IMG/VR virus record: IMGVR_UViG_3300011113_000230
Location: 1 to 27,035 of that record
DNA length: 27,035 nt
Reading direction: 5' to 3' (one strand)
Origin: a virus
In this document: positions 1 through 17,205 of the stretch, piece by piece
Numbering within the stretch: the stretch's first letter is position 1
Layout of the letters: the number at the start of each line of letters is the position of its first letter
Notes under the pieces: model-generated
Told to the model about the DNA's origin: nothing
Databases searched by the model: none
What the model saw: the letters and a program-made list of their open reading frames with translations, nothing else
Position numbers and translations under genes: made by a program

Positions 1-63
1 GAATGATGCTGTTTCAGTCGTTGCCAGCGATACGGCTGTGTGACCAAAGGCAATGGCGTACTG
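1..63 (-). other. Open continuation beyond the amber stop of the LamG-like gene
   Basis: Reading leftward in the frame of the gene at 64-1215, the 21 codons after the TAG at 64-66 stay open to the window edge. They encode a protein-like stretch containing AFGHTAVSLAT. From memory, related phage proteins carry a similar segment directly after their GGP motif without any stop. I therefore infer that this is the C-terminal part of the same protein, reached by readthrough or separated by a mutation or sequence error. No start codon with a Shine-Dalgarno sequence is visible between the amber and this stretch, so a separate gene is unlikely. The true end lies outside the window. Confidence 0.55.
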
Positions 64-1215
64 CTACACAACAGGGCCGCCAGTCAGTGCGGCAGACACT
101 GCGCCTTGCACCGTGACACCGTACACAACCAAATTGCGGCCTGTGATGTTGACACTTGGCACAGGGTTCTGGAAAGCAAACAGAATACCGTCACTGTTCG
201 CCGCCAATGTCGGGTTGACGTTTACCAATCCGCCAAGCGTAGTGGCACCGGCAATAGCTGCCGTGTTGGTTGCTGCGGCTGCGGTAGGCGCGGTGTTGTT
301 GGTCCACCACTGGGTCTTACCTTGCGTATGACCGTTGGCACCGATGTATCCGGATAAGCCCTGTACGGCTTGCTGAACTGCCCACGGCTTAGGAACCTGA
401 ATGTCTTGCAACGTGATCGTCAAATCAGACACGCGCATCGTGTTGGTGTTAGACACTGCGCCTGTGTTGTATTTCATCAAGAACGCAGGAAGGCCAGTGC
501 TAAGGAACGGCTGACCGTTTGCAGATGGAACAGTGAGCGTCCCAATCAACACGTCATCGAACCAGAATTGAATATCCAGCTCCCCTACGACGATAGTCGC
601 CTTGTACAACTGTCCAACGCTAATTGATCCAAACGACTTAAGTACGCCAGTTTGCGTAACCGACCCGTTAAATGCCGCTACACCAATCAGACCAGCCGTG
701 GTCAACTGCCACCATACACCATCTGTTGGGATCGTTGTCGCTGCCGATGGCAAGCCAAAACCGGCAAGGAACACTTCGTTTGTTACCAGCGCAGCAGTGA
801 ACTGGCCAAACGTTAATTCAAACGTCAACGGTGCAGTACCTATCAATGGGAAATATTGATAGGTACGCATGAACGCGCCGTGGGCGTTAGTCGTACCCTG
901 AACAGCCGAGAAATTCACCGTTCCTGCGCCTGGCTGTGCGGCTGTCAGCGTGGCGAATGTATAGGACCAGTTGCTTGTGTTCTGCGTTATAGCGTTGAAA
1001 GAGTCAGAAAACAACACCGTATCCATACCGACGCGCAGTCGATAGTCTTGTGTCGTCTCTGGCGACGCCAACGTCGGTGTACCAAGCGTAGTGCCATCGT
1101 CGTTCTCGCTGAAAATCCTGACACCGCCCATATAGGCGTCAGTCTGCGTAAGCGCGACCTTTACGTTACCCTCGGCGTCGAGGTTACTGCCTGTGATTAA
1201 TGTATCAAGTGCCAT
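64..1215 (-). CDS. Phage structural protein with a LamG/ConA-like middle domain, ends at amber
   Basis: This encodes 383 residues from ATG 1215 to TAG 64-66. The N-terminal 60 residues contain DAEGNVKVAL and end near DYRLRVGMDT. Residues of roughly 70-275 form a beta-rich, Gly/Thr/Phe-rich block of the kind seen in lectin-like (LamG/ConA) sandwiches, starting at SDSFNAITQNTSNW. The C-terminal part is a second beta domain ending in TGGPVV. The gene is the third of three structural-type genes after the large terminase, 12 bases from its upstream neighbour. A decoration or accessory head/tail role is an inference. The oddity is the stop: coding-like sequence continues in frame for 21 codons to the window edge, so the protein may be truncated by an amber codon. 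The gene at 16027-17205 has a similar layout. Confidence 0.8.
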   Translation of the reverse strand: MALDTLITGSNLDAEGNVKVALTQTDAYMGGVRIFSENDDGTTLGTPTLASPETTQDYRLRVGMDTVLFSDSFNAITQNTSNWSYTFATLTAAQPGAGTVNFSAVQGTTNAHGAFMRTYQYFPLIGTAPLTFELTFGQFTAALVTNEVFLAGFGLPSAATTIPTDGVWWQLTTAGLIGVAAFNGSVTQTGVLKSFGSISVGQLYKATIVVGELDIQFWFDDVLIGTLTVPSANGQPFLSTGLPAFLMKYNTGAVSNTNTMRVSDLTITLQDIQVPKPWAVQQAVQGLSGYIGANGHTQGKTQWWTNNTAPTAAAATNTAAIAGATTLGGLVNVNPTLAANSDGILFAFQNPVPSVNITGRNLVVYGVTVQGAVSAALTGGPVV

Positions 1216-1227
1216 TGTTATAACCTC

Positions 1228-1521
1228 TTAGTCAGCCCAAACGTAACGCACTGTCCATGCGCCGCTCAGTTTCTCAATTGATCGTGCGTAAATAGTGAAG
1301 CCTACGCCTGCGGTCGGCGTGCCGCATGTCAGCGAGGCAAATACGGGGAAATACCGATGGTCTGCTGCCGTGTGATTGACGCTAGTATCGTCTGCCATCA
1401 CCCATGCCTCCGCCTTGCTGGTGGCGGATATGGTGGTCAGGCCAGTGACAGCAACGCTCGCCTCGTTCGCTCCGGGATGCGAACCAAAGTTGATAGTCGC
1501 CGTCCCGGTACCTGTTGCCAT
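1228..1521 (-). CDS. Small structural-type protein, 97 aa
   Basis: The protein has 97 residues, is rich in Thr, Ala and Gly, and has alternating hydrophobic residues that suggest beta strands (for example FTIYARS and WTVRYVWAD at the C-terminus). There is no signal peptide or membrane segment. Its ATG at 1521 overlaps the TAA of the gene before it in a TAATG arrangement, so the two are probably translationally coupled. It lies in the cluster following the large terminase, which suggests a virion or head-decoration protein. I do not recognise a named family. Confidence 0.75.
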   Translation of the reverse strand: MATGTGTATINFGSHPGANEASVAVTGLTTISATSKAEAWVMADDTSVNHTAADHRYFPVFASLTCGTPTAGVGFTIYARSIEKLSGAWTVRYVWAD

Positions 1522-1898
1522 TAGGCGTTGCCCTCAGTGATCGAGGCAGACGTGATGCTGACCACATCGCCAATGCCGATGCCCAGGCTGCTCAGGTTGA
1601 TGTTTGAGCCGGACGTGCCGACAGTCAGGCCCTGCATGACGAGTGTCGAGCCGTCTGACTTGTAGATACGGGCAATGGCTGCGGTGCCTGCTGCCGTGGC
1701 TGTACCGTCGCTGATGGCGTTCAGGGTCAGGACGCCACTGCTGGCGGCACCTGCGAATGCCGATGCATTGCATATGCACTCAACCAGTTGGGAGGCATAG
1801 GCGGCCGTGTAGATGCGGAGCTTGGCCGAGGTGCCAGCAAAGGTCGTTATCTGGTCTGCACGGTTGTTCCGCAGAGTGGTGTTAAGGCTGACAGGCAT
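1521..1898 (-). CDS. Structural-type protein, 125 aa
   Basis: This 125-residue protein begins MPVSLNTTLRNNRADQIT and is rich in Ala, Gly, Ser and Thr with repeated short hydrophobic strands, a pattern common in phage head or tail accessory proteins. No membrane segment or catalytic motif is seen. It starts 54 bases after the large terminase stop. It shares its stop region with the next gene through a TAATG overlap at 1519-1523. A virion role is inferred from position and composition only. Confidence 0.75.
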   Translation of the reverse strand: MPVSLNTTLRNNRADQITTFAGTSAKLRIYTAAYASQLVECICNASAFAGAASSGVLTLNAISDGTATAAGTAAIARIYKSDGSTLVMQGLTVGTSGSNINLSSLGIGIGDVVSITSASITEGNA

Positions 1899-1952
1899 TG
1901 GTGTCGCTCCAAGCAGGGATTGCAGTAATCATAGCACACGGTTTGTCAACCC

Positions 1953-3206
1953 TCATGCTATCTGTAGCTTGGGTTGCTTGATGCTCTTGGCCTTCTGCTT
2001 GTCTCGGAGACTGACCGACAGATAGCGAAAGGCGTCTGCCGCATGGCTGGACCAGTCGTGCAGCGGCCTCGGCTTGTACTCCTGACGCCTGTCATCGTAC
2101 TCCTTCCGATAGTTCCGCAGGGCTTGCAGGCCCAGCTCGCACTTCTTGGCGTCGAACCAGCAGCGGGGAATCGTATTCCGGACGGCGTTGATACCATCGT
2201 CTATGCTGAGATTCGGCACGATGCGGAACTCAATACCGAGCATCTTGGCCGTCTCGATCCGGCTCTTGCCCGAGCCTAGTTCCCTGACCTGAATGTCGTG
2301 TGGTGCCCAGTGTTCGCCGTACTTGTAGTCCTTTTGGTCGAGAATCTTGGCGTAGTACGGCAGACCTTCCCCGGAATCCTCGTGGAAGTCTATGATCCGT
2401 ATTTCCTGCCCCAGCACCTGATAGAACCAGATAGCCGTCGAGTCCCCTACGCCCAAATCCCAAGCAGTGTGTACCGGCAGGCGTGGATCATAGGGCACTT
2501 TCCCGATACGGTCTTCGGTCTGCGCCTCTGATAGCTGCTTGCCGTAGTAAGCGCCCTTGATGCTGGCGGTCCATGAGCACTCGTATTCTTGCGCGAACTC
2601 GTCCTCGTCCATGATCTTGCGGGCATCCTCAAGCTCGGCGTTTGGGATGACGCCAGTGTCGGACGCCTTGTACACCTTCACGAACCAGTCCGGCTCGTCC
2701 TTAACACGCTCCCAGAGGTCATAGAATGGCGTACCGCCCTTCGCAGACCCTATGAAAATGGCTGACCCTTCCCTGTCGCTCAGCGCAGGCCGTAGGACCT
2801 CTGAGAAGATTCTAGGGCTCATGTCAGCATACTCGTCCAGCACCACAGCATCGAGGTACAAACCACGCATGGAATCTGGCGAGTCAGCCCCGAATAGCTG
2901 GATGCGAGCGCCCCAAGGGAAGTCCACCCTAAGTTCAGATTCATTGACCTTGATGCCTGGAATGGGCCGCGTAAAGTCCTTGAGATAGTCCCAAGCGATC
3001 TGCTTTGCCTGCTTGTAATACGGCGCGACATAGGCGTAGCGCGGCATCTTCTGCTGGTTCTTGACGGCCTGCTTGATCAGCTCGTTGATGGCAAAGACTG
3101 TCTTGCCGAAGCGCCGATGACAGACCAGAAGGTTCCAACGCTTAAGAGACGCATGGATCTCGCGCTGTAGTGGCCTCGGCTTGTACGGGATGATGACTTC
3201 GGTCAT
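1953..3206 (-). CDS. terL: Terminase large subunit (DNA packaging ATPase-nuclease)
   Basis: This is the packaging motor that drives phage DNA into the prohead and cuts it. The 417 residues carry both expected domains. The ATPase has an arginine-containing Walker A (CHRRFGKT, residues 29-36) and a Walker B with catalytic Glu (VVLDEY, Asp124-Glu125). The RNase H-like nuclease has AWDLGVGDST (Asp250 and Asp255) and a C-terminal HDWSSHAADAFRYL (Asp384, Asp391). The length is slightly short for the family but nothing essential is missing. The ATG at 3206 has GGAGG three bases upstream, which is close. The small terminase and a tRNA gene lie upstream in the same direction. The stop is TGA. Confidence 0.95.
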   Translation of the reverse strand: MTEVIIPYKPRPLQREIHASLKRWNLLVCHRRFGKTVFAINELIKQAVKNQQKMPRYAYVAPYYKQAKQIAWDYLKDFTRPIPGIKVNESELRVDFPWGARIQLFGADSPDSMRGLYLDAVVLDEYADMSPRIFSEVLRPALSDREGSAIFIGSAKGGTPFYDLWERVKDEPDWFVKVYKASDTGVIPNAELEDARKIMDEDEFAQEYECSWTASIKGAYYGKQLSEAQTEDRIGKVPYDPRLPVHTAWDLGVGDSTAIWFYQVLGQEIRIIDFHEDSGEGLPYYAKILDQKDYKYGEHWAPHDIQVRELGSGKSRIETAKMLGIEFRIVPNLSIDDGINAVRNTIPRCWFDAKKCELGLQALRNYRKEYDDRRQEYKPRPLHDWSSHAADAFRYLSVSLRDKQKAKSIKQPKLQIA

Positions 3207-3289
3207 GAGCCTCCGATAGGTGCCTGTTGTCCGGTCAGGCTCCGGTGAGGGTGCGCGTCAGATGGCGGTATGGCACGCCCCCTCATTCT

Positions 3290-3365
3290 TGGTGCCGGCT
3301 GTAGGACTTGAACCCACGGCCTGCCGCTTACAAGGCGGCTGCTCTACCCACTGAGCTAAACCGGC
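3290..3365 (-). tRNA. tRNA-Thr(TGT)
   Basis: A complete 76-base cloverleaf is present on the minus strand with an encoded CCA end (3290-3292). The acceptor stem pairs GCCGGTT with AGCCGGC, with one G-T wobble. The D arm is GCTC/GAGC. The anticodon stem GCCGC/GCGGC holds the loop CTTGTAA, giving anticodon TGT for threonine codon ACA. The T arm is GTGGG/CCTAC around TTCAAGT. It starts one base after the small terminase stop and lies 83 bases before the large terminase start, inside a single transcription unit. Confidence 0.95.
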
Positions 3366-3366
3366 C

Positions 3367-3636
3367 TTATTCCGCCCACTTGATCGTCAGGCCACCGCCC
3401 AGCGTCACGTCGCCTTGAACCTCAACGGCCTTGCGCTTAGGCGCAACGTACTGAGCCAGTTCCTTGTACATCGTCCCTGCCAGGTTGAAGTCACCAGAGG
3501 CGCGAGCCTCGGCGGCAATCTCGGCCATGCCCTGAATTGGGTCACAGCCCAACGCATCGAGCTTGGCCTGAATGTCTTGAGTGTTTTTGTTCGGCGTACC
3601 TTTTTGGCGGCCGCCAGTCTTAACGCCTGTAGCCAT
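3367..3636 (-). CDS. terS: Probable terminase small subunit
   Basis: The 89-residue protein begins with a basic segment containing GGRQKGTPNK, a signature seen at the N-terminus of many short phage small-terminase proteins. Helical and charged sequence follows (AEIAAEARASGDFNLAGTMYKELAQYVAPKRKA). Small terminases recognise the packaging site and load the large subunit. The location two features upstream of the large terminase supports this role. The Shine-Dalgarno sequence before ATG 3636 is weak. The stop is TAA, one base from the tRNA. It is shorter than P22 gp3, so the name rests on the motif and context. Confidence 0.8.
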   Translation of the reverse strand: MATGVKTGGRQKGTPNKNTQDIQAKLDALGCDPIQGMAEIAAEARASGDFNLAGTMYKELAQYVAPKRKAVEVQGDVTLGGGLTIKWAE

Positions 3637-3656
3637 CTTGTCTACCCATGTCTACC

Positions 3657-3806
3657 TTAGACGAAGAAGTCCGGATCGTCCGGCTTATCTGACCCAAACA
3701 GCGTCTTCAAGATTGCCGCCCCGCAGACCACAAAGAAGCCTAGTAGGGTTACAGGGATTAGCAAGGCGATAATGCCCACTGCCAGAAGACGCTCCCATAG
3801 TTTCAT
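3657..3806 (-). CDS. Tiny single-span membrane protein, 49 aa
   Basis: This 49-residue ORF begins MKLWERLLAVGIIALLIP. It has one long hydrophobic stretch (about residues 6-35) and a short acidic tail (DKPDDPDFFV). Its ATG overlaps the TGA of the preceding gene as ATGA (3803-3806), strong support for translational coupling and for the gene being real. It could be a holin-like or superinfection-exclusion type protein, but nothing in the sequence decides this. It lies just upstream of the small terminase. Confidence 0.7.
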   Translation of the reverse strand: MKLWERLLAVGIIALLIPVTLLGFFVVCGAAILKTLFGSDKPDDPDFFV

Positions 3807-4201
3807 GATAGCACCGACGCCCGCAGCTTGTAGTTAGGTTGTTTTTCAACCCGCTGTATGTCCTCGATCCAGTACATGCGCTCTTGCCCCTCCATGATGT
3901 ACATAAGCGTAGGCCATTTGGAGAGGACGTTGGCAAGCACCTTGGGGCTGACGGCCCAACGCTTGGCTATCTGCGTATAGCTTATCAGATCCAGATGCCC
4001 CTCACGCATCTTGGCCAGTTGTGCCTCCTTGCTGAGGTGCGAGGGCACCTTCTGGATGACACCGCCATTAGCCTGGAACAGGGCCACAGCGGCCAGTAGC
4101 TCTTGCCGTTCGGCCTCTTTCTGTCTGATGGCTGTCTGTGTTGATGCTGGCCTGTCTAAACGGCTCTCGATCATCTGATAGCCGTTACCCCACTCGTTCA
4201 T
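3803..4201 (-). CDS. Putative DNA-binding protein, 132 aa
   Basis: The chosen start is ATG 4201, which has GAGGAAG a few bases upstream and overlaps the end of the preceding gene by 17 bases. The 132-residue product has a charged helical N-terminal half (RQKEAERQELLAAVALFQ). It then has a helix-turn-helix-like segment (SYTQIAKRWAVSPKVLANVLSKW), followed by MYWIEDIQRVEKQ. Regulation or packaging recognition is possible from the position upstream of the terminase genes. I do not recognise a named family. The open frame extends about 30 codons further upstream, but no good ribosome site supports that. Confidence 0.7.
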   Translation of the reverse strand: MNEWGNGYQMIESRLDRPASTQTAIRQKEAERQELLAAVALFQANGGVIQKVPSHLSKEAQLAKMREGHLDLISYTQIAKRWAVSPKVLANVLSKWPTLMYIMEGQERMYWIEDIQRVEKQPNYKLRASVLS

Positions 4202-4628
4202 TGTTCTTCTTCCTCTCAGCCTCGGACTTAATTCTGGCCTTCCACGACACACCCCGCAGGTGTCTAGGGTTGCCAGCATTGGAGACTTCATCGATGGCCG
4301 ACTTGTATGCCTCGGTCAGCCAATCAAGTTTAGCGAAAGCCTCCAACTCAACAGTTTCATCATAGTCCACAGATCCATCTCTGTAATGGCCAGTGACCTC
4401 GACGATCCAGTGACGAGGGTGAACCTTCGCCCACTCCAAGATGAAGCTGCACATCCTTTCCGTAAGGGGTCTTTTGAGGACTGGCCGGCTGAACCGTACT
4501 TTCAGGGTACGTTCGCCCTCGGCTAGGTTCCGGTCAATGCTCGACTCCAGTATCAGAAAGTTGATGCCGGAGCCTATGGACATGAGTTCGTAGTGGTTGA
4601 GTTTGCCTGTGGATAACTTTTTGCTCAT
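4185..4628 (-). CDS. Hypothetical phage protein, 147 aa
   Basis: The 147-residue product is a mixed alpha/beta, soluble-looking protein with a basic Lys/Arg-rich C-terminus (RKKNNERVG). Its middle contains RHWIVEVTGHYRDGSVDYDET, a beta-hairpin-like stretch. Its ATG overlaps the TGA of the upstream gene (4625-4628), so it is coupled to it. No motif that I can name is present. It lies between the primase and packaging genes in the leftward operon. Confidence 0.7.
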   Translation of the reverse strand: MSKKLSTGKLNHYELMSIGSGINFLILESSIDRNLAEGERTLKVRFSRPVLKRPLTERMCSFILEWAKVHPRHWIVEVTGHYRDGSVDYDETVELEAFAKLDWLTEAYKSAIDEVSNAGNPRHLRGVSWKARIKSEAERKKNNERVG

Positions 4629-4915
4629 TGTTGTTTTAATACTTTTTCTATCTGCTCGTGTAAGTCTGGCCTCTTGTCTCGCATGATTGCGTAATCCTTT
4701 GCGAATCCAATTTGTCCAGTTTCATCATTCCTGGCTAACCAATAGTTTGCTTTTCTTGGTGCCTTGCCAACCGCGCATATTTTGTAAGTTTTCCAGTGGG
4801 GGTCATGTGGCTGATCTTTTTTATAAAGATTCCAGTCTATGCCCTCTGATTTAACATCGCTAACAAACCTCCATTCATCACCTATTGGTGGCTTTCCTGC
4901 ATATAGCTTTTCCAT
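4625..4915 (-). CDS. Hypothetical small protein in an AT-rich patch, 96 aa
   Basis: I chose ATG 4915 because GAGGG lies seven bases upstream. An in-frame TTG at 4990 would add 25 residues but lacks a ribosome site. The 96 residues (starting MEKLYAGKPPIGDEWRFVSD) are charged and aromatic, without a membrane segment or recognised motif. The coding sequence is clearly more AT-rich than its neighbours, with Lys AAA and Ile/Leu A/T-ending codons, which hints at later acquisition. It is separated from the primase gene by about 200 bases of repeats and precedes a tightly overlapping gene. Confidence 0.65.
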   Translation of the reverse strand: MEKLYAGKPPIGDEWRFVSDVKSEGIDWNLYKKDQPHDPHWKTYKICAVGKAPRKANYWLARNDETGQIGFAKDYAIMRDKRPDLHEQIEKVLKQQ

Positions 4916-5019
4916 CTTGATGCCCTCGTATTGTCTATAGGGTTTAGAATAAATTGCTTTTTTGTTTTTTTCAATCCAACCCACAGACAAACACGCGCCA
5001 CATCGTTGGTGGGTACAAA

Positions 5020-5146
5020 GGGGACAGGGACAACCCCTGCTATAGAAAGGGGGTAGTCCATCTGTCCCCGTTTGTCCCCCCCTTCACTCGTTTTGTCCCG
5101 GGGACATTTGTCCCTACTTGTCCCCATTTGTCCCCATTTGTCCCCC
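5020..5146. repeat. Cluster of TTTGTCCC(C/T)(A/C) repeats with a palindrome
   Basis: Four tandem 10-bp units run from 5107 to 5146 (TTTGTCCCTA, CTTGTCCCCA, TTTGTCCCCA, TTTGTCCCCC). Two more units lie at 5061-5080. A perfect inverted repeat TGTCCC-G-GGGACA lies at 5094-5106. Two copies in opposite orientation (GGGGACA, GGGACAA) lie at 5020-5033. The last units form the 3' end of the primase-helicase gene on the minus strand. Because 10 is not a multiple of 3, successive units are translated in successive frames (GQM, GTN, GDK). Iterons of a replication origin or a regulator site are possible; slippage during copying is also likely. Confidence 0.8.
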
Positions 5147-7033
5147 CCTCCTAATCATGAGTGAGGATGCCAAAACCTGATCAGAAACTATCCAACCTTT
5201 GTCATGATGGGTGATAATTTCGGCAGTCAACAGGTTGTATACTAGCCTGCCTTTCTTGCCTTCCTTGACGTACATCTTGGCCGTTTCTTCACTTACTCCC
5301 TCGTTCTCTACAAGGTATTTGATGAGGTCATTTCGGGCCACATAGGGGAATCCAGCCTGCTCTTGAGCGCCTGCTTTCCACCATGCGTTTGATAGTTTTT
5401 TGATCTCAGATGAGACGCCTGATTGCTTCTTTTCTGTCTGCTCTGGCTTATCCTCAATGACAAAGACAGCCCCGTAAATGACTTCGCCGTCCTCGTCACA
5501 CCAGTTGAGGTCTACCTTTTCCAGTCGGCCATACAGCGGCTCAGGGTCGGCCGCATCCTTCATCTTGGTGCAGGTCACTTCTATGAGGCTTTCGTTGTCC
5601 TTGGAGCGCGTCACGGCAATGCTGGTATCCAGTGCTGCCCGCCATGCAGATGAACCTCTGGCGCGTACCTTCTCGGCCTGATGTCCAACGTGATGTACCA
5701 GCATGACCGAAGCCTGAACAGCCGTTGCGACGATGTTGCAGGCGTTCAGCATGGCCCGAGTGTCACGGGCGCTGTTCTCGTCGCCTGACATGTGGTTATT
5801 CAGCGTATCAATTACTACCAGCGTGACAGTGCCATCGGTCAGCGTCCTGATGGCCTTGAGGATCTGCGCGGCAGCGCCTGGGCTATCCATGTCTATCGAC
5901 TTATTGCTGATCAACAAATTGTCGAGGTTTGTGGTATCGTGCGCCCGCGCCCAACTGGCGACCCGCTGGCGAATACCGTAGTTGCCTTCCCCTGCTAAGT
6001 AGACAACTGTCCCGCTGGCGGTTTTTTTGTCATGCCATTGGGTTCCGGTGGCAATCGAGCAGGCCATATCAAGGCTAACAAAGGTCTTGCCGACACCGCT
6101 TTCGCCAAACACCATGGCCGTACAGTTAGCTGGCAGCCAGCCCTTGATAATCCACTGCAAGGGTGCTGGCTGGCTAAGAAATGAGGTTGCGCGGGTAAGG
6201 TAGTAATCCTCGCCAGACTTCTCGGCTGTTGCGGCCGCCAGCAAGGCATCAGCGGCTTCACTGCCCAAGGCCATTGAGGCTGCCACGTCTGTATCAGGCT
6301 CATATCGGCTGACGGAGTGGACAATCTGCCGGATCTCGCTGGACGGTAGTGGTATCTCGCACCGGGTTTCGTTTGCAATGCTGATGGCGGCAAGAATCTC
6401 GGCCTCCGACATGCCAAAGCGACGCATAGCACCGGCCAGCGAGGTTAAGCCGTCATTACGATTGCCCTGGATTAGTCCACCACTGGCAACGCCCTTGGCC
6501 TCGCGCTGCGTGCGCTTCTTGGCATCAATCGCAATCTTCCAGCGGATCGGCACTTCAAATGGGCCGACGCCTTCAAACGGATCGCTGGAACCTTCCCACT
6601 CGTAAGCCCTGCCCTCGATGGTCGAAGGATAGGCCACAAAGTAGCGGCCGCTGCTTAAAAGGTCGATGCCATCTGCCAGCTTGCAAGAACGAATAGACTC
6701 GTCCCAATGGGCTAGGTAGTGCTGGCCGCCGCCTGCCGTAAGCTGCATGGCGCAGTCTGGCGGCCTGCCGTTGGTCTTGATCCAGTCGGCCCATGATTCC
6801 TCACCGCCATTACGAGGGTCTATATCAAAAACCACAATGCCGGAATCTTGCCCGGCTGCGATGCCGATGTTGAAGTCCGGGTTGCTATTCCACCAGCGGG
6901 CTATTTGGTCAGGGTTGGTGGTCGCATCATGAACACCATGCTGTGTGGCCGGTAGCTTGCCATTTGGCACAACCGGCAAAACCCGCCATCCCCATGAGGC
7001 ATAAGATAGTGCCGCCTCAATCTTTGTTGTCAT
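5114..7033 (-). CDS. Bifunctional primase-polymerase / RepA-type helicase
   Basis: This 639-residue protein combines two replication activities. The N-terminal ~165 residues look like a bifunctional primase/polymerase domain: YASWGWRVLPV, the acidic DID at 70-72, GGGQHYLAHW (His105) and LLSSGRYFVAYPS. Residues ~285-480 form a RepA-like (AAA_25) ATPase with Walker A GESGVGKT (310-317) and Walker B LVVIDT (Asp409). It should prime and unwind DNA at the phage origin. ATG 7033 is the likely start because it overlaps the end of the Cro-like gene by 17 bases, though its ribosome site is weak. It ends at TAG within the 10-bp repeats; reading past it would add nine residues. Confidence 0.9.
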   Translation of the reverse strand: MTTKIEAALSYASWGWRVLPVVPNGKLPATQHGVHDATTNPDQIARWWNSNPDFNIGIAAGQDSGIVVFDIDPRNGGEESWADWIKTNGRPPDCAMQLTAGGGQHYLAHWDESIRSCKLADGIDLLSSGRYFVAYPSTIEGRAYEWEGSSDPFEGVGPFEVPIRWKIAIDAKKRTQREAKGVASGGLIQGNRNDGLTSLAGAMRRFGMSEAEILAAISIANETRCEIPLPSSEIRQIVHSVSRYEPDTDVAASMALGSEAADALLAAATAEKSGEDYYLTRATSFLSQPAPLQWIIKGWLPANCTAMVFGESGVGKTFVSLDMACSIATGTQWHDKKTASGTVVYLAGEGNYGIRQRVASWARAHDTTNLDNLLISNKSIDMDSPGAAAQILKAIRTLTDGTVTLVVIDTLNNHMSGDENSARDTRAMLNACNIVATAVQASVMLVHHVGHQAEKVRARGSSAWRAALDTSIAVTRSKDNESLIEVTCTKMKDAADPEPLYGRLEKVDLNWCDEDGEVIYGAVFVIEDKPEQTEKKQSGVSSEIKKLSNAWWKAGAQEQAGFPYVARNDLIKYLVENEGVSEETAKMYVKEGKKGRLVYNLLTAEIITHHDKGWIVSDQVLASSLMIRRGGQMGTNGDK

Positions 7034-7196
7034 TGTTTTGGGCCTTGAGTTTATTCTTGGTTTTGACCTGTAGTTCGTACTGCCGCGCCATGGGGGGATG
7101 CTCACCCCATCGATAGATTACTTGTGGCCAGACGCCCAGGGCATCGGCCAAAGCCTTGATAGAGCCATAGTGGTCTATGGCCTGTTGGGTTGTCAT
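7017..7196 (-). CDS. cro: Cro-like transcription regulator, 59 aa
   Basis: The 59 residues resemble the P22-Cro type of very small phage repressor: MTTQQAIDHYGSIKALADAL, then GVWPQVIYRWGEHPPMARQYEL. A helix-turn-helix spans about residues 12-30, with a basic tail. AGGAGG lies seven bases before ATG 7196. It is the first gene of the leftward unit, faces the rightward operon across the control region, and overlaps the primase-helicase start. It probably represses one or both divergent promoters. No partner CI-type repressor is visible in the window. Confidence 0.85.
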   Translation of the reverse strand: MTTQQAIDHYGSIKALADALGVWPQVIYRWGEHPPMARQYELQVKTKNKLKAQNNDNKD

Positions 7197-7225
7197 AGGG
7201 TTGCCTCCTATTGGATGGAAACCTA

Positions 7226-7254
7226 AGCCTAGACCATTAAATAATTCCCATCAA
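7226..7254 (-). promoter_or_regulatory. Candidate leftward promoter for the cro-primase unit
   Basis: On the minus strand a TTGATG-like -35 (7249-7254) is followed after 17 bases by TAGGCT (7226-7231), upstream of the AGGAGG of the Cro-like gene. An alternative -10, TTTAAT (7236-7241), lies in the same AT-rich stretch. Neither is close to consensus, but a promoter is expected here because two operons diverge. Confidence 0.35.
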
Positions 7255-7268
7255 GGTGAAATATCTAG

Positions 7269-7297
7269 TTGACGCCCTGCCGGGGAATGCCTATTAT
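7269..7297 (+). promoter_or_regulatory. Rightward sigma-70-type promoter
   Basis: TTGACG (7269-7274) and TATTAT (7292-7297) are separated by exactly 17 bases, five of six matches to consensus in each hexamer. Transcription would start near 7304-7306, about 42 bases before the ATG at 7348, and drive the rightward operon. The start site coincides with the 23-bp element at 7306-7328. Confidence 0.8.
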
Positions 7298-7305
7298 TTA
7301 CCTAT

Positions 7306-7328
7306 GCCGACCGGAATGGCCGACCGGC
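7306..7328 (+). promoter_or_regulatory. Operator-like 23-bp element, copy 1
   Basis: GCCGACCGG is repeated 13 bases apart (starting at 7306 and 7319) within a 23-bp element lying nine bases after the -10 box. The same element, 19 of 23 bases identical, lies at 7908-7930 directly after a second promoter. Its position at the transcription start suggests an operator; a leader RNA element is the alternative. Confidence 0.6.
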
Positions 7329-7347
7329 ACCAAACGAGGAACAGAAC

Positions 7348-7827
7348 ATGAACGCAGTAGCCCAAATCACCACCGCCATTGATGCTTTTTTCGCAGAACA
7401 GGATGCCAAAGTGCTTGCATCAGACATTGAATGGGCGATTGATCGCAAGAAAGCCATCGCGGAGTTTTGGCTGTCCGACGAACGCAAACAAATCAATGAC
7501 CAATTCCGCCTCTATGAAAAACTGTTTGCCATCGCTGGCGGCAAAACTTGGTACAACATCCTTCACGGCAATACTAAAGATGGCGTGATTAAGTTTATGA
7601 CCAAAAACCACGAGGCTACGATTGCCAAGCGTAACGCCAAAATCGCCAGCAAGTTGATTAAGGCTGGCGTCGAAGCGGTCGAAACCGCAGAAGTAGGTTA
7701 CTGTATCGACGGCTTTAACGGCTTTTTCAAAATCAACGGCGACCGGATTGTGACAATCGAGTCCATCCTTGCCGGCGGGTACAACATCCAGCGCCTGCAC
7801 CAGCGGGTACTGGTCAAGGTCAAGTAA
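7348..7827 (+). CDS. Hypothetical protein, first gene of the rightward operon, 159 aa
   Basis: The 159-residue protein starts MNAVAQITTAIDAFFAEQDA after a GAGGAA ribosome site. It is largely helical at the N-terminus, with WAIDRKKAIAEFWLSDERKQ, followed by an alpha/beta C-terminal half (YCIDGFNGFFKINGDRIVTIES). There is no membrane segment or known catalytic motif. As the gene nearest a strong promoter it is probably made early and in quantity, which fits a host-takeover or recombination-accessory role, but this is inference. It is followed by a GC hairpin and a second promoter. Confidence 0.8.
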   Translation: MNAVAQITTAIDAFFAEQDAKVLASDIEWAIDRKKAIAEFWLSDERKQINDQFRLYEKLFAIAGGKTWYNILHGNTKDGVIKFMTKNHEATIAKRNAKIASKLIKAGVEAVETAEVGYCIDGFNGFFKINGDRIVTIESILAGGYNIQRLHQRVLVKVK

Positions 7828-7834
7828 AGAAACC

Positions 7835-7853
7835 GCCCCGGCCAGACCGGGGC
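7835..7853 (+). other. GC hairpin, copy 1 (GCCCCGG stem)
   Basis: A perfect 7-bp stem GCCCCGG/CCGGGGC closes a 5-base loop, seven bases after the stop of the preceding gene. There is no T run, so it is not a classical terminator. The identical stem recurs at 9534-9553 in the next large intergenic gap of this operon. It could be a weak terminator, an mRNA-stabilising end or a processing site. Confidence 0.6.
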
Positions 7854-7869
7854 AGACCCCAAAGCGCAT

Positions 7870-7898
7870 TTGACAGAGTGTGCTTTGTGGTCTGAAAT
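7870..7898 (+). promoter_or_regulatory. Second rightward promoter, before the Sak4-like gene
   Basis: A perfect -35 box TTGACA (7870-7875) is followed after 17 bases by TGAAAT (7893-7898), four of six matches. The predicted start lies near 7905-7908, exactly where the second copy of the 23-bp element begins. It would drive the recombination genes from 7954 independently of the first gene. Confidence 0.65.
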
Positions 7899-7907
7899 GA
7901 CCAAACC

Positions 7908-7930
7908 GCCGACCGGATTCCCCGACTGGC
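7908..7930 (+). promoter_or_regulatory. Operator-like 23-bp element, copy 2
   Basis: This element begins GCCGACCGGA, has a second half-site CCGACTGGC 14 bases after its start, and sits ten bases past the -10 box at 7893-7898. It matches the element at 7306-7328 at 19 of 23 positions. Both leaders continue into an AACGAGGAA ribosome site. Common control of the two promoters by one protein, perhaps the Cro-like regulator, is a reasonable inference. Confidence 0.6.
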
Positions 7931-7953
7931 GTATACAACGAGGAAACGAAAAC

Positions 7954-8631
7954 ATGGCTATCAAAGTCAAACGCAGCGGTCAGGCTTTGGCCGACGCTGT
8001 GAAGATTCTCACATACGGCGCGGCCGGTGCTGGCAAGACCAGCCTAATCCCGACGCTACCAGCACCAATCGTCCTCTCGGCCGAAGGCGGTTTGCTATCC
8101 ATTCAGGATGCAGACGTGCCCTTTATTGAGGTCGATTCCATGGCAACGCTCAAGGAAGCCTACGCTTGGCTTTCCAGTAGCGCCGAGGCGGCACAGTACG
8201 CCAGTATCGCGCTGGACAGCATCAGCGAGATTGCCGAGGTGGTTCTTAACGCCGAGAAAAAGGCGACAAAAGACCCGCGCCAAGCATACGGCGCGATGCA
8301 GGAACAGATGGCGGATATAATCCGCGCCTTCCGCGACCTGCCAAAGCACGTCTACATGTCGGCAAAACTGGAAAAGGCCCAAGACGAAATGGGTCGCATC
8401 CTGTATAGCCCCTCGATGCCTGGCAATAAGACCGGCCAGCAGTTGCCATATTTCTTTGACGAAGTGCTGGCCCTCCGTGTGGAACGCGATGCCGAAGGCA
8501 ATACACAACGAGCGCTCATGACTGACAGCGATGGCCTTTGGGTTGCGAAGGATCGCTCCGGCAAACTTGCCCCATGGGAACAGCCAGACCTTGGTGCGAT
8601 CATCACCAAGATCACCGGAGGTGCCAAATGA
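7954..8631 (+). CDS. Sak4-like RecA-fold ATPase (phage nucleotide-binding protein)
   Basis: The start is ATG 7954, with CGAGGAAA upstream; the product has 225 residues. Walker A GAAGAGKT lies at 22-29, followed by LIPTLPAPIVLSAEGGLLSI and a Walker B-like IALDSISEI. This matches the AAA_24 / Sak4 type of phage ATPase, single-strand annealing proteins related to the RecA core. Sak4 proteins act with a phage ssDNA-binding protein, and a DUF669-type candidate lies two genes downstream. A Cas4-like nuclease completes a recombination set. It overlaps the next gene as ATGA. Family assignment is from motif and context. Confidence 0.85.
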   Translation: MAIKVKRSGQALADAVKILTYGAAGAGKTSLIPTLPAPIVLSAEGGLLSIQDADVPFIEVDSMATLKEAYAWLSSSAEAAQYASIALDSISEIAEVVLNAEKKATKDPRQAYGAMQEQMADIIRAFRDLPKHVYMSAKLEKAQDEMGRILYSPSMPGNKTGQQLPYFFDEVLALRVERDAEGNTQRALMTDSDGLWVAKDRSGKLAPWEQPDLGAIITKITGGAK

Positions 8632-9026
8632 ATCCGCTTAAAATGAACATCGACGAGCTTTCGTCTGCATGGATCGAGGCAAAAGAAGCCGAGCGCGTGG
8701 CGGTCGAACGCCGCCGCGCCATTGAGGATCATCTTGCATTGGTCATGGAGTTGTCGCCTGAACTCGACAGCACCGTGACCAAAAAAGACGGGGCCTTTGT
8801 CATCAAGGCCGTAGGCCGCCTTAACCGCAAGGTGGACAGCGAAAAGCTCCAGGAACTGGCTGCCGAGGCTGGCCTGACCGATCACCTCTCCACGCTGTTC
8901 CGCTGGAAGCCTGAAATTGACATGAAGGCATGGAAAGCCACCGACCCGTCTATTACCTCGCCACTGGCTGACGCCATCACCGTCACGCCCGGCCGCCCAT
9001 CTTTCACTATCACCACCAAGGAGTAA
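8628..9026 (+). CDS. Conserved phage protein of the recombination cluster, 132 aa
   Basis: The 132-residue protein begins MNPLKMNIDELSSAWIEA with a coiled-coil-like charged helix (residues about 8-45). It then has a compact C-terminal part: KVDSEKLQELAAEAGLTDHL and FRWKPEIDMKAWKATD. GGAGG precedes the ATG, which overlaps the preceding stop as ATGA. I recall similar proteins next to Sak4 and DUF669 genes in other phages, but no biochemical role. It might be an accessory of the annealing or ssDNA-binding proteins. Confidence 0.8.
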   Translation: MNPLKMNIDELSSAWIEAKEAERVAVERRRAIEDHLALVMELSPELDSTVTKKDGAFVIKAVGRLNRKVDSEKLQELAAEAGLTDHLSTLFRWKPEIDMKAWKATDPSITSPLADAITVTPGRPSFTITTKE

Positions 9027-9032
9027 GCCATC

Positions 9033-9521
9033 ATGGCATTCTTAGACCAAGCGATTGAACTCGACACTCTCCCGCAAGCCACTACGTCCTACGAACTGCT
9101 GCCGCCAGGCTGGTACGATGCCACCGTGGCCGGCGCTGAGTTGCGCGACACCAAGACCGGCGGCCAGATGATCGCTGTGAAGTACAGCATCCTCGGCCCG
9201 ACGCATCAGGGTCGGTTGGTGTGGGGCAACATCAACATCCGCAACGCCAACCCCAAAGCCGAGGAAATCGGCCGCCAGCAACTGGGCGACATTATGCGAG
9301 CCACTGGCCTGGCGCGTGTGACCGACACCGACCAACTGATCGGCCTTACCATGGGCATTAAGGTGGCCATCCGGGATGCGCAGAACGGCTATGAAGCGCA
9401 GAACGAGGTAAAAGGCTGGAAGTCCACGCAAGGCTCTGCCGCCCCGGCTCCTGCGTTTGTTCCACCGTCTGCACCGACTGCCGCACCTGCTGGCAAACAG
9501 CCACCCTGGGCCAAAAAGTGA
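9033..9521 (+). CDS. DUF669-type protein, probable phage ssDNA-binding protein
   Basis: The 162 residues resemble phage DUF669 proteins: ELLPPGWYDATVAGAELRDT, then GGQMIAVKYSILG, GRLVWGNINIRN and EEIGRQQLGDIMRATGL. This is an OB-fold-like beta core followed by an Ala/Pro-rich linker ending PPWAKK. That layout of core plus flexible tail resembles single-stranded DNA-binding proteins. The tail here is basic rather than the acidic tip of bacterial SSB. It sits six bases after the preceding gene, behind an AAGGAG site. It should protect ssDNA and work with the Sak4-like ATPase. Confidence 0.8.
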   Translation: MAFLDQAIELDTLPQATTSYELLPPGWYDATVAGAELRDTKTGGQMIAVKYSILGPTHQGRLVWGNINIRNANPKAEEIGRQQLGDIMRATGLARVTDTDQLIGLTMGIKVAIRDAQNGYEAQNEVKGWKSTQGSAAPAPAFVPPSAPTAAPAGKQPPWAKK

Positions 9522-15863: not shown

Positions 15864-16030
15864 TAGACACCTTCGATTACCGCTATTGCTGCGATAATGG
15901 CAGCCTCATCAGCATCCTCTGGCAACTCAAGAATCCAAGGGCCGACATGCGTCCCTTGGTCATTCTCAACTGCTGCCACGACGAACAGCGTACCATCCAG
16001 GCGTTTTTCGACGGTTTGTATCAAGATCAT
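15863..16030 (-). CDS. Hypothetical protein, 55 aa
   Basis: The 55 residues start MILIQTVEKRLDGTLFVVAA and end EAAIIAAIAVIEGV. They form a small alpha/beta-looking acidic protein without a membrane span long enough to be convincing. The ATG overlaps the TGA of the larger structural gene (16027-16030) and its own TAA overlaps the next ATG, so it is firmly embedded in the operon. No family recognised. Confidence 0.65.
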   Translation of the reverse strand: MILIQTVEKRLDGTLFVVAAVENDQGTHVGPWILELPEDADEAAIIAAIAVIEGV

Positions 16031-17205
16031 GGCGCTACATACCCCTGAGCGTTGACATACACAGCACCAGTCGTTGAGGCTGTCAGCGTTACCACTTCCA
16101 AAAGTGTGTTAGCTGTGCCCTTGAGAGGATTTGAAAAAATAATATCGCTTGTAGGAAGACCACCCGTAGGGATTTTGGTACGCCAGATAACAGTACCAGC
16201 AGCTCCGTCCCGGACTGCCAGTTCAGTCGCAGTACCAAGGGCTTCCGCCATGACTTGCAGCGAGGTGATGTAGTTCCTCTGGCCAGCGCCGCCAGCCGCT
16301 TTGATTGTCACGGCAGTGGTGGAGTTAAGGATGCCACCAGCCGCAGCAGCGTAGACCCAATCGTTTTCAGGGATCGAGTAGGGCTTGCTGACAGTAGCAC
16401 CACCAGCCGTCACCCTGGCACGCCAGAATGGGTTGGTGGGGTCCATTATCATGTGACCATTGTTGCCAGTGTCTGCGATACCGAAGGCGTAAATCTGCAT
16501 CTGAGCAGCCGCCGCAGGTGCAGTGCTGTTAATGGCAATAGCCTGGAAAGGCAATGTGGCAACGAACAACACAGGAATTTGGATAGTGGCAACCGGAGTA
16601 ATAGTGTTGTTGACGTAGAAGTCTAGGCGATCAGCACGACGAGCGATAGCACTGTAGAACGGCGTGTTGTTTACCAGTGTGACACCAGTGGAGACGTTGC
16701 TTGTGCGCGTTCCGTTCTGATACACAACCGCAGTCAAGACGCCAGCAGCAGACAGTTCAAAACCACAACCGTTGACGATAGGCGCGGAGGTTGTAGGCGT
16801 AGCCTGTACAGAACCCCAACCCCAGAACCGCAGGGTATTAGCCTGAACGACGTTGGGAATGGCTTGTGTCAAGCCAAAGGCTAGGAAGTTGACACCATTA
16901 GGAGTAAAGGTGGGTTGTGTGTACAAACCACCATAGGCGTTCGCCGTGGTGCTGGAACTGATGGTCAGCACGCCATTGGAGACAGCAGCCGTACCGGTTG
17001 CCGTTTTGGTCGTCCAGCGGTTGGTCGTGTCCAAGCTGTCAAACGGCTCAGTGAACCACGCATTGGGTTCTTGGGTTACTCGCAGGTAACCGTATTGGGT
17101 AACCCCGGCTTCGACGCCATTAGACCCGAGGACAGACCCAAGGTCTTCGCTTGTCATTGGGCGAATAGTGCCGTCCAATGAGTCTTTAATATGATTCAGT
17201 GCCAT
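16027..17205 (-). CDS. Second LamG/ConA-like structural protein, 392 aa
   Basis: The 392 residues begin MALNHIKDSLDGTIRPMTSE. After a short N-terminal part (GYLRVTQEP), a beta-sandwich-like block starts at FTEPFDSLDTTNRWTTKTAT and runs to about residue 250. A C-terminal domain (FWRARVTAGGATVSKPYSIP to QGYVAP) follows. The overall layout resembles the protein at 64-1215: short N-terminus, a block opening FDxxxxTxxW, and a separate C-terminal domain. The C-terminal domains do not look alike. It probably decorates the virion or binds a surface. It lies between lysine-rich small genes and the end of the leftward unit. Confidence 0.8.
   Translation of the reverse strand: MALNHIKDSLDGTIRPMTSEDLGSVLGSNGVEAGVTQYGYLRVTQEPNAWFTEPFDSLDTTNRWTTKTATGTAAVSNGVLTISSSTTANAYGGLYTQPTFTPNGVNFLAFGLTQAIPNVVQANTLRFWGWGSVQATPTTSAPIVNGCGFELSAAGVLTAVVYQNGTRTSNVSTGVTLVNNTPFYSAIARRADRLDFYVNNTITPVATIQIPVLFVATLPFQAIAINSTAPAAAAQMQIYAFGIADTGNNGHMIMDPTNPFWRARVTAGGATVSKPYSIPENDWVYAAAAGGILNSTTAVTIKAAGGAGQRNYITSLQVMAEALGTATELAVRDGAAGTVIWRTKIPTGGLPTSDIIFSNPLKGTANTLLEVVTLTASTTGAVYVNAQGYVAP

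Follow-up and report, generated by a model that had tools for sequence, protein, structure and literature searches.

An apparently private in-frame amber codon near a contig end in the gene of a lectin-like, jelly-roll virion-type protein of an uncultured phage

The window analysed here is an entire IMG/VR record of 27,035 bases without flanking sequence, so that its left edge is the contig end. The leftmost gene lies on the minus strand. Its open reading frame starts with the ATG at 1215, and TAG (window 66-64) follows directly after codon 383, at a distance of 64-66 bases from the contig end. Beyond the TAG the same frame reads QYAIAFGHTAVSLATTETASF, which amounts to 21 codons without a stop down to base 1; what is left of the gene (relatives have about 74 further codons) falls outside the contig to the left of base 1. 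The features of this end of the window are listed in Table 1. Because a terminase large subunit is encoded at 1953..3206, the region was assigned to the head and packaging genes. In the related contig L005, a lectin-like gene precedes a 212-residue gene, after which comes a portal gene. In the window itself no portal or capsid gene was recognised, and the genome is therefore incomplete.

Table 1. Features at the left end of the window, with positions in window coordinates.
Feature	Position	Strand	Basis
Post-stop codons (n=21), keeping the reading frame of the relatives	1..63	-	Alignment to relatives
In-frame TAG, codon 384; sense codon in relatives (mostly Leu, Tyr, Phe or Val)	64..66	-	Alignment of relatives
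Codons 1-383 of virion-type protein: lectin/glucanase-like N-terminal domain and jelly-roll strands 1-3 (predicted)	67..1215	-	Model of and alignment to L002 homologue
97-aa upstream neighbour, with conserved counterparts in L005 and L006	1228..1521	-	Comparison with relatives
125-aa upstream neighbour, assigned to phrog_3758 (virion structural protein)	1521..1898	-	PHROGs
Terminase large subunit	1953..3206	-	PHROGs
tRNA-Thr (TGT), the window's sole tRNA and no suppressor; conserved in L005 and L006	3290..3365	-	tRNA search

Relatives were collected by an alignment-based search of IMG/VR, which gave at least 203, of which 80 were retained; 75 of the 80 cover the TAG column. Several of these 75 are near-identical contigs from related samples, and they do not represent 75 independent lineages. 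Close relatives were found in three IMG/VR contigs (L002, L003 and L004), with 84, 76 and 61% identity over residues 1-383 and lengths of 479, 479 and 474 residues, respectively. Relatives that were neither damaged nor cut had 474-512 residues in total, from which the intact window protein would be about 479 residues long. Of two genome-contig scans, one gave no relative and the other added two MAG contigs (L138 and L139); no relative of the protein was obtained by tblastn among annotated phages.

Domain residue numbers were taken from the L002 homologue, which aligns to the window protein without gaps. The model of this homologue contained a lectin/glucanase-like domain at approximately residues 66-270, followed by a C-terminal beta domain. 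When residues 309-479 were modelled alone, a compact jelly roll of eight strands was obtained (mean pLDDT 90.1, pTM 0.85). Codon 384 corresponds to residue 76 of this modelled domain and sits in strand 4 (residues 74-84). In the predicted structure the TAG thus lies inside one of the strands of a compact beta domain and does not mark a domain boundary; a chain truncated at residue 383 would lack strands 4-8, i.e. five of the eight, except for the first two residues of strand 4.

Searches of PHROGs and Pfam revealed no family for the lectin-like plus jelly-roll protein itself. The same two-domain layout was found in proteins of uncultured Caudovirales, for example BFVD A0A6J5NNM7 (486 aa), which matched the L002 model over nearly its full length at 33% identity and a TM of about 0.74. 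The N-terminal domain resembled the concanavalin A-like lectin/glucanase fold of GH16 lichenases, Emp46/47 and legume lectins. Against GH16 lichenases, residues 66-270 of L002 gave Z values of 19-20 and an rmsd of 2.5-2.7 over about 180 residues; GH16-type lectin/glucanase structures are only 10-15% identical to this domain, and the likeness is one of predicted fold that carries no claim of enzyme activity. The C-terminal domain resembled jelly-roll virion proteins such as microvirus spike protein G (9k3n; Z 8.6, rmsd 3.5, 136 residues), a middling match that is a likeness of fold without a demonstrated sequence relationship and may reflect a common arrangement only. Judged from the fold and the gene neighbourhood, the protein is a putative adhesin or decoration protein. 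Another protein resembling it in length, and seemingly also in layout with its lectin-like start and a beta-rich end, is encoded at 16027-17205 on the minus strand. No family was found for it, the sole match being to DUF7209 below the threshold.

The first-pass annotation had described one continuous protein interrupted by an amber codon, and had stated that in related proteins GGP leads into FGHTAVSLAT with no stop between them. Both statements agree with the alignments: the frame is open to the edge, the aligned relatives pass through this site uninterrupted, and the post-stop residues match those of L002 one for one, with 20 of 21 identical. An open run of 21 codons is unremarkable by itself, and it is this residue-by-residue alignment with the relatives that carries the weight. 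Between the window and L002, codons 385-405 differ by 10 synonymous and 1 nonsynonymous codon changes (pS 0.588, pN 0.022); against L003 the numbers are 11 and 2. Since pS is far above pN past the stop, the region was probably translated until very recently or is still translated, although the undecayed state of the stretch rests on 21 codons and is modest evidence.

At the TAG column, the 75 relatives have Leu (36), Tyr (17), Phe (10), Val (6), Gly (2) and Pro, Ile, Met and Asn (1 each), with Tyr in L002, L003 and L004; none has a stop. When IMG/VR was scanned with the degenerate motif GGPV(V/I)-stop-x-YA, no contig with TAA or TAG was returned, as against 16 with Tyr. An exact 39-base scan for near-identical contigs found none in IMG/VR, in searches that may omit the window's own and very near records. 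As far as the compared contigs indicate, the stop is private to the window contig. With respect to family membership, similarity to L002, L003 and L004 spans both domains and includes the post-stop codons, and all site-covering relatives in this Caudovirales family (n=75) are free of stops here, whereas codon 384 of the window copy is a stop. The uninterrupted frame through the jelly roll is thus missing from the window copy, possibly through an error. Because the TAG breaks the frame at this codon, the window gene was labelled a relative with a lesion and not an intact member.

Readthrough of stop codons in virion proteins has a precedent in the Q-beta coat protein and its A1 extension. Programmed readthrough in the window gene, yielding a virion protein in a short and a long version, would agree with a downstream frame that is open and under purifying selection. 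It is disfavoured because of conservation and domain position and is considered very improbable: neither the 75 relatives nor the 16 Tyr-bearing contigs of the motif scan share the stop, which moreover cuts strand 4 of the eight in the predicted compact jelly roll (mean pLDDT 90), so that the short form would be a domain fragment. Readthrough, one of the options listed in the first-pass annotation, is on these two grounds not supported as a source of functional short and long forms. That the amber is real and that the ribosomes of the natural host pass it some of the time, with virions carrying a mixture of truncated and full-length adhesin, is likewise hardly to be expected. Least credible of all is a naturally shorter, functional version of 383 residues. 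One relative, L036, also lacks the C-terminal part by way of a deletion, but the product in the window would miss five of the eight jelly-roll strands, and the 21 codons past the stop are still conserved.

A further reading takes the TAG as a sense codon, either by reassignment of the code or in a suppressor host. Phages that recode TAG are known, and some of them have no suppressor tRNA of their own (PMC10607447). What the crAss-like phAss-1 group has in common with the window is a TAG lying in frame within a structural gene; in these phages, dozens of genes are interrupted, often with suppressor tRNAs present, and phAss-1 has TAG inside 41 ORFs (PMC10607447), as opposed to one interrupted gene in the window. 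No other lesion was seen among the window genes for which relatives allowed a comparison. The code use of other genes points the same way. As the first-pass annotation had listed, the genes at 5114, 20173 and 25506 terminate in TAG; the next in-frame stop follows 9, 25 and 4 codons on, respectively. L140 and L142 likewise have TAG as terminator of the 20173 gene, at the aligned C-terminus. Relatives of the 25506 gene were searched for and none was found. Several members of the lectin-like family also use TAG as terminator.

The suppressor-tRNA check proposed in the first-pass annotation gave a partial answer: a suppressor tRNA (CTA) was absent from the window, whose tRNA complement is Thr(TGT) alone and which lacks part of the genome, and from the examined stretches of the relatives. 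The missing part of the genome could carry one. On the basis of code use a sense reading of TAG was disfavoured and is regarded as highly improbable, and the earlier judgement that reassignment of the whole code is unlikely was borne out by the terminator of the 20173 gene, kept in two relatives. As a side observation, the tRNA-Thr gene adjoins the terminase genes.

Of the three options named in the first-pass annotation, readthrough thereby dropped out, while sequence error and nonsense mutation remained as a pair that sequence cannot fully separate. Both remaining readings are ordinary. The TAG is interpreted as a private lesion, most likely a base-calling or assembly error near the end of a metagenomic contig, and this interpretation is held with about even confidence. 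The last stretch of such a contig would be poorly supported, which could result in a wrong base call at 64-66; the real phage gene would then encode a protein of the ordinary length of about 479 residues, without any short form. An error was favoured over a nonsense mutation because the TAG sits no more than 66 bases from the contig end; stretches of 66 bases at both ends sum to about 0.5% of the contig. In the window genes comparable with relatives (1228 to 9521) no in-frame stop was seen. For short-read assemblies of isolates, median mismatches per 100 kb were 2.76 with SPAdes and 1.89 with MegaHit (PMC6172800, Table 3). Enrichment of errors at contig ends is the assumption behind the error reading, and no paper quantifying such a concentration was found in the literature. 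The sequence in L002 is TACGAG and that in the window TAGCAG, so that two adjacent bases differ. This exceeds one isolated miscall; the change in codon 385 may be ordinary divergence.

Somewhat less probable, though a serious contender, is a real and recent nonsense mutation in the phage lineage, in which an accessory adhesin-like protein may be dispensable and a truncated allele could persist for a while. The two readings stay close because the strength of error enrichment at contig ends is assumed. Damaged genes of this kind have a precedent in lambda PaPa, in which the stf fibre gene is broken relative to Ur-lambda (PMC9659904). Lesions were also found elsewhere in the family. In L111 a single in-frame TAG (L111:2915-2917) replaces the conserved Glu147, a column in which 77 of 81 aligned rows have Glu; its position about 1.2 kb from the contig end would count against stops being confined to contig ends. 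In L036/L099 (IMGVR_UViG_3300008107_003152), a deletion of 349 bases relative to L028 removes the C-terminal part of the protein. Its flanks are 100% identical to L028 and show no microhomology, and it represents either an artefact of the assembly or a deletion that segregates.

Over the 80 relatives, one in-frame stop was counted per 36,543 aligned residues. At this family rate a stretch of 405 codons is expected to carry an in-frame stop about 1% of the time, and picking oddities over many windows will meet such stops by chance. The neighbouring genes were too thin a control for the lesion rate, with 2-39 loci aligned per gene. Against a nonsense mutation, its position no more than 66 bases from the end would be a coincidence, the undecayed post-stop codons mean that it must be very young, and the family lesions may be assembly errors too. 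Should the lesion be real, it would amount to a naturally arising null allele of a virion adhesin with an accessory role, as is familiar from phages. As a caution, when a stop breaks a conserved frame close to where a metagenomic contig ends, recoding should not be concluded without reads.

The lectin-like protein was 76% identical to that of L006 and the terminase 99.8% identical (window 1-1215 versus 1228-4628), and the DNA identity to L006 steps near 1215. This step suggests recombination or fast evolution of the lectin-like gene. Tandem duplications were observed in two other contigs. In L058 the lectin-like gene family is present in two tandem copies (L058:707-2164 and L058:2377-3507), and in L054 the gene of the 97-residue neighbour is duplicated in tandem (L054:1938-2195 and L054:2198-2488).
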